Source of the DNA: Tubiluchus corallicola
Lineage: Eukaryota > Priapulida > Priapulimorpha > Priapulimorphida > Tubiluchidae
Assembly: GCA_030141605.1 (NCBI GenBank)
Contig: JAQGDQ010000122.1
Span: 441,001 to 505,000, forward strand
Direction: 5' to 3'
Length of the DNA stretch: 64,000 nt
The translations under genes and the position numbers were made by a program. Shown here in pieces: positions 24,563 to 34,341 of the stretch. Within the stretch, counting starts at the first letter, position 1. Each line of letters opens with the position of its first letter. The notes under the pieces are model-generated. The model was given only the letters and a program-made list of their open reading frames with translations, did no database searches and was not told the origin of the DNA.

Positions 24563-27500
24563 TTACCCAACTTTCTGCTCCATCATCAACTTCATGTCAT
24601 CAAGTGGATGTAGATTATCTGTAGGTTGAATGTTGTATTTGTCTACAAGAATTCTCAACACATTGGGTGTCAGGAAAGCCGGCAATTTGGGACCCAGTCG
24701 AATGTTCTTGATTCCCAGATGAAGCAGAGTCAACAGGACAGCAACAGCTTTCTGTTCAAACCAGGAAATAGCAAGGGATATAGGCAGAGAGTTGACATCG
24801 GTGTTGAAAGCATCAGCTAAAGCCGAAGCGACGACCACAGCTCCATATGCATCATTACATTGTCCCATGTCCAGCAAGCGAGGGATTCCTGACTCACCTA
24901 ACATGCCCAGGTCTTTGTAATTAAACCTGTAGAATGAAAGCAATTTGTACAATAACTTTTTCAATTACTTCTCTACATCTTCGTCTGCTTGCAGTTTAAT
25001 CAACTGTGTTGTGTTTCCTTATACGACCTGACATGCAGCAAGCTAGAAACTGGTGTGCAACAACACAGTCCTACTTAACTGGATTTTCATGAAACATGAC
25101 TCTTTGCCAAGGTGTCTGTAAGATGATGTCACTGACCATCTTAGCATCATTCGGAGGTGAATACACACACACACACTCTATGAGGCAAACAGCAAGAAAC
25201 AGTATGGCTACTAAAACCACCAACAACGAGTATTTTTTGAAGCAGTTCACCCAAGAAGCCTTGGAACAACAGTTCTTAACTACGATTGACTAGTCACCAA
25301 TCAGAGCACCTTGCTACTCGGCAACACATTTTCCTCAAAATGATGTTGACGAGAATGCTCAATGACTTTATGCTACCAGGATTGCAAAGCTTCATATACA
25401 ATTCTGACAGCCTTTCACCATCAATCAAATACAGTGCTTTTAAATTCTTATTAAACAGCAGCAGCTAAAACATTTGTAAGATAAGCAATGGGTGGCTGCA
25501 AATAGTTCAAAATTAGCAAACATCTTTTCATAGAAGTTATTACTGTGATGCTAGTGTTGCAACAGATATTTGATAAGCAAGAAATTACAGCATTGAACTG
25601 AAATCTGATCTGACCTATACTAACAATACAACTTTGAACAAGTCTTAAGTGGGTTAAGATCATTGAAGTCGGAAACAATGAAGTAACTGCATTACTCAAA
25701 GCAATAAAACGCAATACACTTATACACAAAAACTAGAAAAACATTTCCCACAGTTACAATATAATACAATATAATATATGTAAAGTAAAAATTCACCTGT
25801 ACTTGGCACAGCCCAAGGTCAATACGACTGTATCTTGTGGTAAACTTTCTACAAGTGTGGAGTAATAACTTCTACGATTTTCTGAGCCATCGCATCCGCC
25901 CACAACAAAAATTCTTTTAAGTCCTCCACTTTTTACTGCATCTATTACCTGAAATGTATACAAAGTGAAAAAACATGAGCTACATGTCAGTGTTAGCATA
26001 GCATCCAAGTCATTCTTTGCTATTCTTTTTAGTTTAAGAACAAACATTTGTGCTGTAACCTGTGTACATTATATACAGTAAAACTGTTACAGTGTGTAAA
26101 TAATTTATAAGTAACTACTTCCTATCTGAGAAGTTGTGGGATCGATTCCAAGTTGGGTATCTTACTCTGACAGACGAGTAAATTCTGAGAGTAAACTCAG
26201 AAGCGTGAACGGTTTTGCAAGTTCTGCCGGTAAGTTTTTGCGAACTTTCCCAAGAGTTGCTGCAAATTCTCTCCAACAGTAAGCATGAGTTTACACTCAG
26301 CAAAACTCAAGACAGTTCTTGCAAAGCCGTTCACACTTGCGTGTTTACTCTCAGAGAGAATTCGCTAGAGGAAACTTGATAGTCTGAATGTGCCGTAACT
26401 GTGTAGTGTTTTCGACAATTATGACATGTCACAATAAACACAATAAACTAGAACATTAAAGCAAAAAAATGATGCAAGTGTAATACATAATCTATTTTAC
26501 AGATCAAACCGTTACAGCAAAATGTGAGATTTAAAACATAAATGAAAATACCCTGAATGCTTGGCCTCCTCGAAAATTACTTTAAGGGTGTGCACAAACA
26601 ATATGTAATCTGTCCCTGTTGCTTCAAGAGTAAGATTACAGTCAAAATTATATTAATTCACCAATATAATTACTTGGGATTAAAACAAAACAACAAGTGG
26701 GTGTGAGTACCCAGCAATAGTGATATGATATGAAGCACATTTCACTATTATTTCTAAAAGCAAACTTTATTAAAATCACAAAATAAGCAAATATCTATAA
26801 AACACGCTCTAATTTAATACCAGAAATTGGACCAGTTGACTGCAGGCATTCACAATGGTGGATATTTACCTTTTTTGCATAAACTCATGAAGGTAAAAAG
26901 TTGTAAAAATACTGTAGTGATATGCTTCATTTTCTAATTTCCTTTTTAAAAACAGTGTCTACAATCAACAACATTTTGAGACATGCATACCTTTCCGGCA
27001 TTAGCAAGCAGGAAGTCGTGCCCAAATCCTACAGTCAACTTCCCGTCTCTGTCTTTGTAGGAATCACAAAACTCCCGAGTATAGCCTTCGCAGCTCATAG
27101 CAGAGGACAGCAGGTCTGCCATGTGATCGTCACGTGATAAATCCAAGTGTTTACAGCCTTTAACAAATGGGGAATTCTCATCAAGTGACAATTTCAATTT
27201 TATATGGATATGTAACAAAACAAGGTTATGTAACATTAACACAAATTATGTCAGCAAACAACAACAAAATTTGCGTGTAATTCTTAGGTCACGATAATGA
27301 ACCTTTTACAGTACACAACTTTTTCCATTTTGCTGTTGTTACTCGTGCAGGTGTTGTCCAAATGTTTATGAAGAGAAGTTAACAGCTCCGACATTTTGTA
27401 AAGGATGGTAATCACAATTTATAAGATAAATATTTGTCATGAACAATTTAATTAATGAAATTACCTGACCACCCGACATCGTTTAGGGTGAAAAGTCTGT

Positions 27501-30500
27501 CCTTGTACGAGTGATGTGGTTCAATGATGCAGTTTGTTGTCACGACGATCGGACCGGGAAATCTCGGAAACTCAAATTTCTGCAGCATCCAAGCTCCTCC
27601 AAAATGTCCCACCAGATTCTGAGAGATTGCAGTGATTAGCGACAAATCATCAAATTCTTTAGCCAAATTAAACTCAAGGAATGGAATTTGCAAAAACTTG
27701 AGCTAATTTGAACTCAGCGCTCTGAATGTATAGACAAACTGTATTCTATGCAATTCAAATTTTTGAATAAACCATTTTGTTTTTTGCTTCTTTTATTGAA
27801 AATAATATGATATATAAAAAAAAACAATTGTATTCTAACAATGTAACAAATATGACATTCTCAAGTAAGAAGCAATGAAATTTCTATAACAGCACCGTCA
27901 ATCCATAACATGTCTAACATAATACCGTGATGACAGATTTTCATACTACAATATCTAGATCACAAAAGGCAACAACTTTTGCTATCTTGGTCATGCGACC
28001 ACATCAGCCTAGACTAACCTTAATGAATTTACCTTATATTTGCGCAATTTGGGATATCCGTGAGCTGGCAGCATCTCTCCGTGTGTATAAACATTGATAC
28101 CAGTTTTCTCAGTAGCTTTCAGTACAGCCAAAAGATCAACAAGATCATGGCCAGACACAAGGATCGCCTTAAACGATAAAGGAAAAGAAGAATTATAATC
28201 GAGCTATTATTAAAACGTACAGCTCCTAGGAAAGTGACTCTCGAAGATATCGCATGATACAAAATGCATCACTTTTCATGAGCACATTCATGTCTAATGG
28301 CACGTTCAGATTAGCGAGTTTTCAGGTCTTGTGAACTTGCTCAGTCACTCGCCAAGTAATTTCCAAGCGTGATCAGACTAGAGAACAAATCTTGCTGCGA
28401 GTTAATCTCCGAAGTGTCGAGAGTTAACTCGACAAGGCATTCATACTAGCTTGTAGGAAATCAACTCGCAGCACCTGTTACAGAATTTGCAATAACTTGC
28501 CAACAGTAACTCACAAAGCAGTTCACACGTGTGAGATTGCTGTCACGGAGGAAACTCGTATCAGAAACTCACTAATCTGAATGCACAGTAATAGGTAGTG
28601 ATAGTACTATGAATACGTTTAACGCTTGGCTGTTAACTTCCTTCAAAGAAACAAAATAATCCTTTTTGTGGAGTTTAGTGCAAGCACACTGCAAACTAGA
28701 ATCCAACACTCAATGGTAAGGTCTACGCAAAGCTGATATTTGTGGCAAAACAGGATCCTGGCTAAATATAAAGGCTAACATTCTAAGATGAGGCACTAAA
28801 ATATGACATAAAAGACATATTTCTATTCAACTAGGACTACAAAACTAATTTACGTAGTGAGAGACTAGTGTTCACCAGTCATTCACCAGTCTCTCACTAT
28901 GTAAATTAGTTTTGTAGTCCTAGTTGAATAGAAATATGTCTTTCATGTCATATTTTAGTGCCTCATCTTAGAATGTTAGCCTTTATATTGAGCCAGGATC
29001 CTGTTTTGCCACAAATATCAGCTTTGCGTAGACCTTACCATTGAGTGTTAGATTCTAGTTTGCAGTGTGCTTGCAGATACCATTCTTCTGAAAAATCTTG
29101 TAAAATTTTCGGGATTTTGTAAAATTTTCAAAAATTTAATTCACTTTGAATCATAAATATTGATAAAAATAGCTTGAGACCACATATCTTCATCAGAAAT
29201 GCAGGAAGTTACCCCAACCATTGATCTCCTTACTAATTCTTGCAGTTATTATATCATGCAATCAAGTTTTCAATTAAAACAAGAAGTAAAAGACAAAGAT
29301 CAGGAACCAATGACAGAAATTTCAAATTATACCTTTCCAGGCACAGGAGCTGTTGAGACCTCGTGGGGAGATGGAGTTCCAAACTGGTCACGATGACCCT
29401 TGTCCAGCAGTTCCATGCCTTTCAAATTTACTTCACCAACCCGCAAAGCCAATCCCAGGTTCGTGGCCAAATTGGTCCTGTCAGATTCTGCACTAGTTTC
29501 TAAGAAATCGACTGCCTAAATGTTTTTCACAAAAATCGGTAGAAATCATTCAACTCATTATAAAGTTCTTCACTGGGGAGTACCATGAATGGAAAAGATG
29601 GCTGCCTGTCTGATTATTGACAGCTGTTCGTAAAGCATGAGCTAAACAAATGTTCATTCGTAATGTTAACTTACGGAATAGTTATCATATACTGCTGGCA
29701 GTTTCTATACTCACACTACTTTTACTGATGTGCTGAATTGATATGAAGGATCAGTAGCAGTTTAGATGGATTATGCTCAATAGGATTGACATTTTTGAAG
29801 TTTTTTTTTGGTACGATACTGCCAGAGAATCAAACTTATAAAATGACTTTTCAGAAAAAACACGCCAGGCTGTTTTACCAACATATTGATCTATTCGATA
29901 TATTTATATTGAAATATCCACGTAATTATTTTCCTCTGCATGCAATATCAGTTACAATTTAAATCACAGTTATTCAGTACTACTATGCTTTGTAACTTTA
30001 GTTCCTTAAATACAGCAATAGCAATGATGCAACTGCTGTGAACAAAATCTTAAACTGAAAATCTTTAATCCTGCTGATCGATACTGAATGGCACGGAACC
30101 AAGTTGGTTTAACCGTACATCATCAGCAGCTGGTAGTCTTGAAATTTTACGAACTTTTACAAAGATCTTTCAGCAAAACAGCCATTTCTGTGTGAGAGCA
30201 AAGGAAGAAGCTAAATGACCAGATCAAATACGATTACTTTTATGAGATCTGATGATGTGATTAGTGTGTGTAATCAATTAATAACTGGCCAACCTGCAAA
30301 AAGAATTTTGTGCATAAACTCACAACACACAACCACCCACGCCCCACTCACAACACACCATCCACACTAACCCACTGCACCAATCATAACACACCATCCA
30401 CACCGCACCACACCTCCTACGCCATACAACAACACTAGTGTTGATATTGAAACCAGTGTAGACATGGAAAACAAGTGTTAATATGGAAATAGTCAAACAG

Positions 30501-33500
30501 TCATACATTGGCAAAGCAAATCATCTTTAATATTTTACACAATCTTTCATTTAATTTATATTATTGATTTTACTTGCATATATATATATATATATATATA
30601 TGTATTGCCACCCACACCATAGCACACCACCCACATAAAATGAAATGCAACCTTTTGCAAATAGTTACCTCAAATACAAATGCAGAAATGTCTCGTGACT
30701 CTTGTCCCAGCAAAGCTGCATGTCTGGCATAAGTCGCCATTCCCTTCAAGCCAAAGATAATCATCTGCCGAACTCCATGCAAATCTGCTCCGTAAATGGC
30801 TTCTTCAAGGCGCAGTCCAAATTTCTTACCTGCCAAAGATGTAAAAGCCACTTTAGTGAATCGTCCTTATTTAGAGTATTAAAACTGATTATTTAAAACA
30901 AAATCATGATTACATTTCAATTTAAAAACGACTGCCAGTGCAATATACTTATTAACTTCTAGTCCTGATGTCGTTTTCAAAGTAAAACGCTTTTAATATT
31001 TTTAATAAAGACATTCATATATTTTTAACCAAATGACTACGAGTGTATGAAGTTAATCAATGCGAACCTGGCTAGTGAATGGACACATGACCGATGGGTT
31101 CAGTACTGTTTTGAGGTGTCTCAACTGCCACGCTATATAAATATTCAATTTGTTTAGAGGACAATATATATCAAGTCAGTTCAGTGTTTGCTCGTAACGG
31201 ATTTTCCTTGATGAGTTCTGGTCCTGCCACAAACAGCAACACTGAGCAGACCATGTCATTAAGTGCATGATCCCAGTTTGCAACACGCCAAACTGTATAA
31301 AAAAATGACTCGGCTTACAAGGAATTTGTTATAACATTTTATATGCGACCAACTGGTATCATTGCTCAACAAATGAAGAAGCTATCTCTTCCATTTCTAC
31401 AAAGTTTTCTACAGTTATAGAATCCACAGTACTTTTCCTTTTTTTAAAAGTAAAATTGTTCATTTATTATCCACAATAAGTAACTCTTCCTGTGACTTAC
31501 CTTCTTCTGCAAGAGTATGTACATCTTCCGCAGGAGGGCGATATGTGGCTGGACCTTCAGGAAATGCTTCAGGTTTTGCTCCTTGTTCCTACGAGGTAAA
31601 CCGTTTTCAGACAATTAGTGTTTAAAAGCACGTGAAAGGAATTTCATACTCTCACAGATTTATGACACATGTATAAGCTAAATTCAGTTAAGCAGAATGA
31701 CAGCGTTAGTCATTTTATGGTGAAACTGTTATGGTCTGTTTATGACACGAGCATTTCTTAATATAATGTCTTGTCATTGTTTACTTTAAGGTCTGTTCTT
31801 TATAAGATAAATCAAAATGAGACAGATCCAATCATCAGTGAATAGGAATGGAAGTGTAAATTACTAGTGTGATATATTAAACTGATGTGATAAAGGTAAT
31901 TGTCAAGTATTTTTATTATAATTATATTAAGTCTGACCTTGCAAGTAGAAAAATATAGTTCTTTTACAGCATCCCTGTGTTTGAGTGCCTCAGAAATGTA
32001 GACAAGAAACCTATCTGGGTCAAAGTTCACATTTGTTAGTGTGCTGCAAAAAGAAACAAAAGTAAAATTAACACAAGCAGAACAATAAACAAACAAAAAC
32101 GCTGTTTTCTTTTTGGAAATAGTTACCCAAAATAAGCCTAGTGAACATTTTGGACAGATGTTACCACAGAATTCGAGCAGTTTTAAAAGATTTAAACCAG
32201 ATCCAAAAAAACAGAAAACTTCGTCTACAGATTTCTTAAAATTCACGAAGCATGATATTGAAGTTGTGTCCAAGCAAGCGAGCGGCGTAGAATGATGCGT
32301 GACAATAAATGTGATGGTCAATAAATCTAGTTCCTCCTTAATTCCATTGTTTGAAATAAGAATAATAATTTAGATAATTTGGAATAATTTAGAATAATTT
32401 AAATAATTTGGAACAATATAGAATAATTTGGATAATTAATTGTGCCAGACAGACTTTAAGCAGAATGTATAAGTATTTTAGAGAGCACCAATTGAATTAT
32501 GATCATCGAACTTTATTGTCACTGCCACATTCTCATGTTTGATCACACTATATATTGTACTAATTAAAATTTCTGAATGCTAATTCATAAAATTTTCAGA
32601 ACTACTTGAATCATAAACTACTACAGCTGTTGCTGCTAATATGTCAAGTTACATACCAAAACAATTCCAATGAATTTAATCAGAGAACATTTGTACCAAA
32701 TTAAATTAATTAAATGAACTTACAATATCTACTCATATTAGCATTTATTGCAGTAATTTGATGGCTACATTGCTGTGATGCATGCAGTTCATCATCATTC
32801 ACAAAGAATATGCAAACTGTGGTATGTATTATTGGTGTGCAAATAACAGAATTAGTCAGTGTAACATATACATTGGCACACAATGGATTATTGTAAAACA
32901 TACGCTGATAGTCTCTTATACGTTGGCATACAACGTGAATGGGTAATATAAAACTATGATCTATAATTTAATGCTCACTCTAAAAGAACAGGTCTAAGCA
33001 ACTTTAAAATACTCATTAAAGGGATCATGGAAGTTCTAAAGTACTTGCTCACCTGAACAATGCTGAGTACATAAAATCGTACACTTCATTATTAAGATGT
33101 CTGCCCAGCTTGTTGACACGATGCCCGTACAAGGCCAGACCACGCAAGATGTACGTCAACAAATCTTGCAGGTGCGAAACCTCAGCAGTTTTTCCGCAAA
33201 CTCCGATCGTAGTGCACCCCTTCCGATTCTTGGTTTGTTCACATTGAAAACAAAACATGTCTGAAAATAAGTAATGAAAATCATAAAAAATCTTGTGCAC
33301 AAAGCTGTTTTATTACATTGGTCAATTCGTAATGTTTTAACTAGTGAAAAAATATGTGAGCCAATTAGAGCTATGTGCTCTGCTGTGCTGCAGTAGCACA
33401 AATAAGATAACCTCACTAAATAACATAGAGGCAACAATTTGTTTTCTACACTACCCACAGTCATGAAAGCTAATTCATTCGAAAATCAGACATATGATAT

Positions 33501-34341
33501 ATGCACGATTTCAGCTGTAGTAGACCGGACATAACTGACTGTGGCACACGTACAATATCAGTCAAGTAAATTGCAAGTGAATAACAGAAAGAAATGGACA
33601 GTCAGTACCATTGCGACCACTTAGCCACAACTTACTAGAGCCTAGTTATTAGCCTTTTCACATGGCAACAAGAACTTTTGTTAAACTTACATTTCATACT
33701 AACTTTCATAGTAATAATATAACTCTCTTATTTTCATATTAATGAAAATAATTAGTTAACTAACTAATTAATAAAGCAAGATTGATTATCAAGTTATTAA
33801 TGATATAAGTCTTCCATCCTAAGGAGAAATTTTATGACTAGCATGGAAAAAATGAATAAAAAAATCATTCCACTGCCAGATTCTGAAACCTGTGCCTCTC
33901 GCTTAGAAGTTGCCAAAAATGCAATAGAGTTGGCAAGAATACCTGCTAGAAAGCCACTGGTTCAAATCCAGATTTAGAACATTTTTTACTATTTCTTTTG
34001 CAAGCCAATCATAAGTTCACCTTTACATAATAGAAAATTCATAATGTCATACAGATTAAGTGAAAATTAACAAAACTTCTCAGTATTTCACTAAGAAATT
34101 TGAAAGACATGAGATCTGAATAGCACTAGAAGCTGCGCTACAATAATCATATAATACCTTCAGTATCGGCATTCGCTGCTCTGGCTTTTGTGGTATAGCT
34201 TCTCAACTTAACCTCTCCAAGATTTCGCAAAATAGTCCTGTTAAAGGGAGCCACGTGTCTCTCTAAAACACTGCATCGCCCTGCTGTTAGATAGCGCACA
34301 GTTGTGGCACGTAACAATGCTCTCAACAATGTGGAAGCCAT
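24563..34341 (-). CDS. HCP: Hybrid-cluster protein (hydroxylamine reductase family), mitochondrial
   Basis: Complete 11-exon gene, 633 aa: exons 34158-34341, 33053-33260, 31938-32043, 31501-31588, 30669-30829, 29333-29515, 28033-28167, 27465-27618, 26991-27157, 25797-25948, 24563-24926 (all minus, GT-AG, phases consistent). Residues 1-62 form an Arg/Ser-rich leader without acidic residues at its start ([18 protein letters not shown]), typical of mitochondrial import. The enzyme follows: Cys65, 68, 77 and 83 (C-x2-C-x8-C-x5-C, cubane Fe-S cluster), then the hybrid-cluster ligands His317 (SGHD), Glu341 ([10 protein letters not shown]), Cys385 (TTNC), Cys481 (VGGCDG), Cys509 (LGCAK), Cys536 (DMGQCND), Glu570 and Lys572 (SWFEQK). 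Spacing tracks bacterial HCP with an offset of 73-77. HCPs reduce hydroxylamine or NO and act in nitrosative stress or protein S-nitrosylation; the role in this animal is inferred. Confidence 0.95.
26150..26393. mobile_element. Truncated relative of the 28298 MITE
   Basis: The right part (TTCACAC..., GAGGAAACT..., GTCTGAATGTGCC) parallels the right end of the element at 28298-28588 (TTCACACG, GGAGGAAACTCG, TCTGAATGCACAG). No clear left terminus. Lies in the HCP intron between exons 26991-27157 and 25797-25948. Confidence 0.4.
28298..28588. mobile_element. MITE with TAA target duplication, Harbinger-like
   Basis: Imperfect terminal inverted repeats (left ...CGTTCAGATTAGCGAGTTTT, right complement ...CATTCAGATTAGTGAGTTTC) with TAA on both sides (28295-28297 and 28589-28591). 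The 3-bp TAA duplication is the habit of PIF/Harbinger elements. Same HCP intron as the hairpin. Confidence 0.6.
28679..29075. repeat. Near-perfect 397-bp foldback (inverted repeat) in an HCP intron
   Basis: Left arm about 28679-28870 and right arm about 28884-29075 are reverse complements with only a few mismatches or indels, around a 13-bp loop that itself carries a short direct repeat (TTCACCAGTCA). The ends read TGCAAGCACACT and its complement. It lies in the intron between HCP exons 29333-29515 and 28033-28167. Either a foldback-type MITE or a small-RNA hairpin. The high arm identity implies recent origin or ongoing conversion. Confidence 0.9.
30319..30425. repeat. C/A-rich low-complexity tract
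   Basis: Irregular reiteration of CACAACACACCATCCACAC-like words in an HCP intron. Confidence 0.6.
30579..30602. repeat. (AT)n microsatellite
   Basis: Uninterrupted AT dinucleotides in an HCP intron, 67 bp from the exon at 30669. Confidence 0.95.
33880..33980 (+). repeat. Possible tRNA-derived SINE relic in HCP intron 1
   Basis: CACTGGTTCAAATCCAGATT fits a B box; the upstream part is only loosely tRNA-like. Confidence 0.3.

Follow-up and report, generated by a model that had tools for sequence, protein, structure and literature searches.

Hybrid-cluster proteins (HCPs) are iron-sulfur-oxygen enzymes found chiefly in microbes. The family has been reviewed with the Escherichia coli protein Hcp as a high-affinity nitric oxide (NO) reductase and with a mitochondrial member, HCP2, in the alga Chlamydomonas (PMC7412212). 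An alpha-proteobacterial origin was proposed for the algal HCPs (PMC7412212, PMC8003979), and in an older study of eukaryotic HCPs, mostly those of protists, the proteins fell into several distinct groups, for which repeated transfer was the preferred explanation (PMC1484493). In the present study, we analysed a stretch of 64,000 nucleotides from the priapulid Tubiluchus corallicola (hereafter, the window; C1711:441001-505000 in an assembly of 343.5 Mb and 2344 contigs), which contains an HCP gene with 11 exons. We found a second HCP gene in the same genome (contig C225:102592-94542) that shares introns, cluster ligands, and a candidate leader motif with the window gene; this second gene is new in this analysis. 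With a probability of roughly 0.6, we consider the window gene to be an animal nuclear gene whose product, a class I-like HCP, is imported into mitochondria and reduces NO and/or hydroxylamine at low oxygen.

The original prediction, made from the letters of the DNA, had called an 11-exon gene at 24563..34341 for an HCP with a full active site. It was right in coordinates and strand, the spliced model is complete, and the family and the active site were borne out as well. The deduced protein scored 692 bits against NCBIfam NF003658 (hydroxylamine reductase; cut-off 367), 645 bits against TIGR01703 (hydroxylamine reductase; cut-off 360.8), and 504 bits against the Pfam family Prismane PF03063 (cut-off 27; residues 63-614), and its closest solved structure is the HCP of Desulfovibrio vulgaris (E = 2.3e-145). 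The match to the Ni-CO dehydrogenase model TIGR01702 (46 bits) was far under the cut-off of 478. At the level of family models and structural matches, the protein is confirmed as an HCP. The N-terminal cluster is represented by Cys65, 68, 77, and 83 (spacing C-x2-C-x8-C-x5-C), and the hybrid cluster by His317, Glu341, Cys385, Cys481 (presumably the persulfide position), Cys509, Cys536, Glu570, and Lys572. When aligned to the D. vulgaris HCP, the window gene and the C225 gene each have 12 of 12 cluster positions; for D. vulgaris we used what we take to be its cluster residue numbers, and the residues found there in the 1e2u chain agree. The N-terminal cysteine spacing is the same as in D. vulgaris and falls within the one that we assume to define class I (C-x2-C-x7/8-C-x5-C); by this feature, the window protein appears class I-like. 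Class I HCPs are not known to depend on an Hcr partner.

The gene lies on the minus strand (window 34341-24563); in the spliced model, the ATG is at 34341 and the stop codon ends at 24563. The coding sequence of 1902 nt encodes 633 amino acid residues with no internal stops, and all 10 introns (307-1165 nt) are of the GT-AG type. The GC content is 0.455 (45.5%) in the coding sequence versus 0.334 (33.4%) in the introns. The features are as follows.

34158..34341, minus strand: exon 1, import-type leader, residues 1-61 and the first base of codon 62, ending in phase 1 (GT donor; the RSYTTKAR motif is also in the C225 candidate leader)
33053..33260, minus strand: exon 2, Met63 and the N-terminal C-x2-C-x8-C-x5-C cluster motif (spliced model, alignment)
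31938..32043, minus strand: exon 3 (boundaries identical in the C225 paralog)
31501..31588, minus strand: exon 4 (boundaries identical in the C225 paralog)
30669..30829, minus strand: exon 5 (spliced model and C225 paralog)
29333..29515, minus strand: exon 6 (spliced model and C225 paralog)
28679..29075, minus strand: long inverted repeat in intron 6, 192-nt arms, 97% complementary, 13-nt spacer
28033..28167, minus strand: exon 7, hybrid-cluster ligands His317 and Glu341 (spliced model, alignment)
27465..27618, minus strand: exon 8, hybrid-cluster ligand Cys385 (spliced model, alignment)
26991..27157, minus strand: exon 9, one codon more than in the C225 paralog (spliced model and paralog)
25797..25948, minus strand: exon 10, Cys481 and Cys509 (spliced model, alignment)
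24563..24926, minus strand: exon 11, Cys536, Glu570, Lys572, and stop (spliced model, alignment)

The inverted repeat in intron 6 appears mobile-element-like; an Rfam search of the window gave no matches. The HCP locus was found on three contigs (C1711, C1797, and C2115) with 100% identity over 9.2 kb. Assembly redundancy seems a likelier explanation than three gene copies, because a flavodiiron-type gene likewise occurs on four contigs, the bacterial contig C1700 among them, with equal scores (compared by score, not by sequence).

The window and C225 proteins are identical at 387 of 570 residues of the core. Introns 2-10 of the C225 gene agree with those of the window gene in position and phase, and exons 2-11 match, exon 9 being one codon shorter in C225. 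DNA similarity between the two loci is confined to exons or exon edges, with none running through introns.

An import-type leader had also been predicted, and a basic leader does precede the core: it comprises the 62 residues ahead of Met63, has a net charge of +6, and contains an R-3-type motif, which recurs in the candidate leader of C225. Candidates for exon 1 of the C225 gene were sought in 7.8 kb; each had to have an ATG, a listed GT donor, and a phase 1 end, and their order was set by net positive charge and helical moment. The top candidate (score 10.8; runner-up 6.0) starts about 1.9 kb upstream of exon 2. The two leaders are identical at 17 of 57 aligned residues. They have in common the motif RS[Y/L][T/A]TKA[R/K], and in both of them ED stands directly before the core start MFCFQCEQ. 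The window HCP is probably targeted to mitochondria, and the paralog with its shared leader motif supports import as judged from the sequences.

Other genes of the same genome bear on low oxygen and NO. The gene at C1789:614737-638810 (L118, L119, and L121) is intron-rich; after its POR_N exons come a flavodoxin exon and further reductase-like exons, the latter recognised by eye only. As the POR exons continue into the flavodoxin exon, we regard the gene as PNO-like, and we rejected it as an animal pyruvate:ferredoxin oxidoreductase that would be a source of reduced ferredoxin. In the PNO reaction, NADPH is formed in place of reduced ferredoxin. The first frame of this gene, near 614737-614997, may be leader-like. 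Tandem, very similar frames at C1789:625605-625751 and 626171-626314 (L119), both with the second [4Fe-4S] ferredoxin motif, are candidate mutually exclusive exons. Intron-split genes for AOX and for cytochrome c1 are also present. Together, the PNO-like, AOX, and cytochrome c1 genes resemble the low-oxygen mitochondrial toolkit of Alvinella and, in part, of siboglinids: the Alvinella genome paper reports AOX from Alvinella and PNO from Alvinella, siboglinids, other annelids, and some non-chordate bilaterians, and takes such genes to indicate mitochondria that are flexible or facultatively anaerobic (PMC12403961).

An exon-by-exon search gave no candidates for the NO synthase domain in the whole genome (the control was found in 2 of 14 genomes), which is unexpected for an animal. 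This null result does not establish that the gene is missing, because the same type of search also missed COX5B, which had no match in the genome and whose control matched nowhere, though it found HCP, PNO, AOX, and cytochrome c1; the search can thus overlook genes to be expected in an animal that has cytochrome c1. COX1 had no match in the assembly either; the mitochondrial genome is probably not included in it. Five hydrogenase-type matches were found at three places. Two of them are uninterrupted frames whose bacterial surroundings look like operons, and the remaining three are pieces of one intron-split gene, which we take to be CIAO3/NARFL; thus, an animal hydrogenase was rejected. An animal flavodiiron protein was also rejected, as no intron-split gene was seen among the five matches (four single frames with identical scores and a weak single frame on C1809). 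Among nine globin matches, five stretches were examined, and three contained full-length single frames, presumably of the globin X type; for one of these frames, the best solved structure is neuroglobin. The globins thus gave no confirmation of a siboglinid as the host. The three frames (C992:2803-3144, C724:11020-11379, and C1915:1194571-1194924) have Gly-2 and a nearby Cys at the possible start (MGC, MGSGC, and MGTSC).

What the sequences show is the gene structure, the ligand set, the recurrence of the leader motif, and the selection; import, the assembly of the clusters, the donor, the substrate, and the role in physiology are inferred by analogy with the family, on which the knowledge has been reviewed (PMC7412212). 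The HCP would be imported into mitochondria, where the mitochondrial Fe-S machinery would assemble the [4Fe-4S] and hybrid clusters. Electrons would pass from NADPH through ferredoxin reductase and mitochondrial ferredoxin to the N-terminal [4Fe-4S] cluster and then to the 4Fe hybrid cluster, which would reduce NO to N2O and/or hydroxylamine to ammonia under low oxygen and so spare respiration.

Several points weigh against this proposal. The helical moment maximum of the leader is unremarkable, being reached by 703 of 5000 shuffles; therefore, the shared leader motif in the paralog is the better evidence for import. The phase 1 ending, the charge, and the helical moment of the C225 leader were selected for by the search itself, and only two features of the leader, the motif common to both genes and the ED ahead of the core, are independent evidence. 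The substrate of HCP is debated even in bacteria, according to the review (PMC7412212). A rat-liver mitochondrial hydroxylamine reductase, cited in a study of Riftia (PMC2175520), means that hydroxylamine removal might not need HCP. Finally, an endogenous enzymatic source of NO is doubtful, because the NO synthase domain was not found in the genome search; if the synthase is truly missing, NO would come from nitrite or bacteria.

The HCP might instead serve chiefly as an electron sink of anaerobic metabolism, with ferredoxin being oxidised by hydroxylamine, nitrite, or another acceptor. Such a role was proposed for Chlamydomonas HCP4 (PMC8003979), and the PNO-like and AOX genes occur in the same genome as the window gene. 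We nevertheless consider this role unlikely. The pyruvate enzyme is PNO-like and would make NADPH, not reduced ferredoxin, and the only intron-split [FeFe]-hydrogenase-type match seems to be CIAO3/NARFL; thus, we saw no ferredoxin-based fermentation. Somewhat less likely still, the main activity of the protein in mitochondria might be that of an NO-dependent S-nitrosylase or of an NO sensor instead of a detoxifying reductase. All of the ligand positions are retained, and protein S-nitrosylase activity has been reported for HCP, but redox potentials are described as incompatible with oxidase activity (PMC7412212), and the search for NO synthase, as stated above, found none.

Between the window and C225 genes, pN over the core is 0.210 (dN 0.246) and pS is 0.830, which is saturated. 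Given this dN against saturated synonymous sites, both genes have been constrained at the protein level; the duplication is old and under purifying selection. The presence of a second, diverged copy suggests that HCP is an old, working part of the animal. A decaying or non-catalytic relic is very improbable in view of the open frame, the clean splice sites, the 12 cluster positions in both copies, and a dN far under the saturated synonymous change, and a pseudogene is ruled out by the intact ligands and by this difference.

In a scan of GTDB, at least 584 of 588 matched stretches were confirmed as relatives, and the best 80 were kept. Among these best 80 of at least 584 prokaryote loci, the highest identity to the window core was about 51%. 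A separate set of 46 plasmid-borne HCP records stayed below 60% identity in each case. For the first tree, 81 bacterial rows were chosen, namely the 80 GTDB loci and an intronless HCP on the bacterial contig C1700 (C1700:113276-114898), and four (L045, L057, L069, and L076) were dropped because of wrong reading frames. The final 80 rows consisted of 77 bacterial rows, 1e2u, and the two animal genes, which were the only eukaryotic HCPs. The second tree contained 46 of the 80 rows, chosen by hand, and its bootstrap was unsettled. The animal pair was monophyletic (support 100 in the 80-row tree), with a stem length of 1.2 changes per column in that tree and of 1.2-1.4 over both trees. It stood beside seven rows, four alpha-proteobacterial, two gamma-proteobacterial, and one labelled Myxococcota, with an SH-aLRT value of 95 in the 80-row tree and support of 88/94 in the 46-row tree with its unsettled bootstrap. 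This link is weak, because the seven rows differ from the animal genes in their N-terminal spacing (x11/x6) and because the stem is long; it agrees with the alpha-proteobacterial origin proposed for algal HCPs. Recent transfer from any sampled bacterium seems unlikely because of the sequence distance and the shared introns. Of the phylogeny that the original prediction had suggested, the comparison with bacterial HCPs was thus carried out.

The surroundings of the gene are those of an ordinary animal locus, as had been claimed. Five of the seven flanking open frames matched Pfam families: Cation_ATPase_C (two frames, plus strand) and Xan_ur_permease (two frames, minus strand), which we take to represent a plasma-membrane Ca-ATPase and SLC23, and 7tm_1 of G-protein-coupled receptors (one frame, plus strand). 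The other two had no Pfam match. C225 also encodes CTP synthase, polycystin, ligand-gated channel, CUB, and LRR frames, and interspersed repeats are common to the window and C225 (up to 84.6% over 630 bp); therefore, both most likely belong to one animal genome. The window gene thus combines spliceosomal introns, animal neighbours, and repeats shared with another animal contig, and the non-animal contig that had been named as a risk is at odds with these gene families and repeats. Bacterial contigs do occur in the assembly. The product of the C1700 HCP gene shares 40% identity with the window core, and in the tree it falls with D. vulgaris and away from the animal genes. A flavodiiron-type gene (C1700:301788-302366) is carried by the same bacterial-looking contig, and bacterial-looking [FeFe]-hydrogenase operons are at C1833:3076-3987 and C552:30414-31286. 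These three contigs suggest that low-oxygen bacteria were sampled together with the animal; the denitrifying symbionts of the original prediction are speculation. Bacterial contamination or very recent transfer, for which the bacterial contigs and the intronless HCP of C1700 might speak, has next to no probability and is ruled out by the ten spliceosomal introns, of which nine recur at matching places in the other animal gene, by the animal neighbour genes, by a best identity of about 51% among the best 80 prokaryote loci, and by the grouping of the C1700 copy with D. vulgaris, not with the animal genes.

Discussions of how animal mitochondria deal with NO normally centre on globins and cytochrome oxidase. 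A conserved HCP would give these mitochondria an Fe-S-O centre of bacterial type that reduces NO/hydroxylamine; a denitrification-type step (NO to N2O) would proceed inside them, and a possible animal source of N2O would be at hand. It would also reopen an earlier animal sighting, an expressed sequence tag (EST) from Riftia pachyptila, that was set aside as possible contamination. We put forward, quite tentatively, that some invertebrates keep a nuclear, mitochondrion-targeted HCP of ancient, possibly alpha-proteobacterial, origin that was anciently duplicated and that serves, in the absence of a detectable NO synthase, as a mitochondrial enzyme dedicated to NO/hydroxylamine reduction, against NO from bacteria or nitrite; the Riftia EST would then be a true host gene. 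Two genes with shared introns make such questions of NO handling testable.

Among the known systems, the D. vulgaris HCP (class I, PDB 1e2u) resembles the window protein in its full-length alignment, its N-terminal cysteine spacing, and all of the hybrid-cluster positions; unlike the window protein, it is bacterial and without a leader, and the animal genes do not group with it in the trees. HCP1-4 of Chlamydomonas reinhardtii are, like the genes described here, eukaryotic and duplicated, and form an organelle-targeted family with a proposed alpha-proteobacterial origin; they differ in being algal, and they are likened here by description, not by sequence (PMC7412212, PMC8003979). The Riftia EST (EF648468, 'hydroxylamine reductase'), from the branchial plume, is an animal-tissue cDNA annotated as the same family. 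The best matches reported for it are bacterial, including an alpha-proteobacterium, with none to symbiont genome data; unlike the window gene, it is a single EST that its authors considered possible contamination, and the likeness is one of annotation (PMC2175520). A clam genome report describes a gene family of the same kind in one sentence, in that species only among four molluscs, and the passage does not address ligands, introns, or targeting (PMC5499747). These two are the earlier animal sightings that turned up in a search of open-licence literature, and further reports may exist. The window HCP is thus a well-supported addition to a family already known, from hosts in which it has been little recognised, and does not represent a new kind of system.

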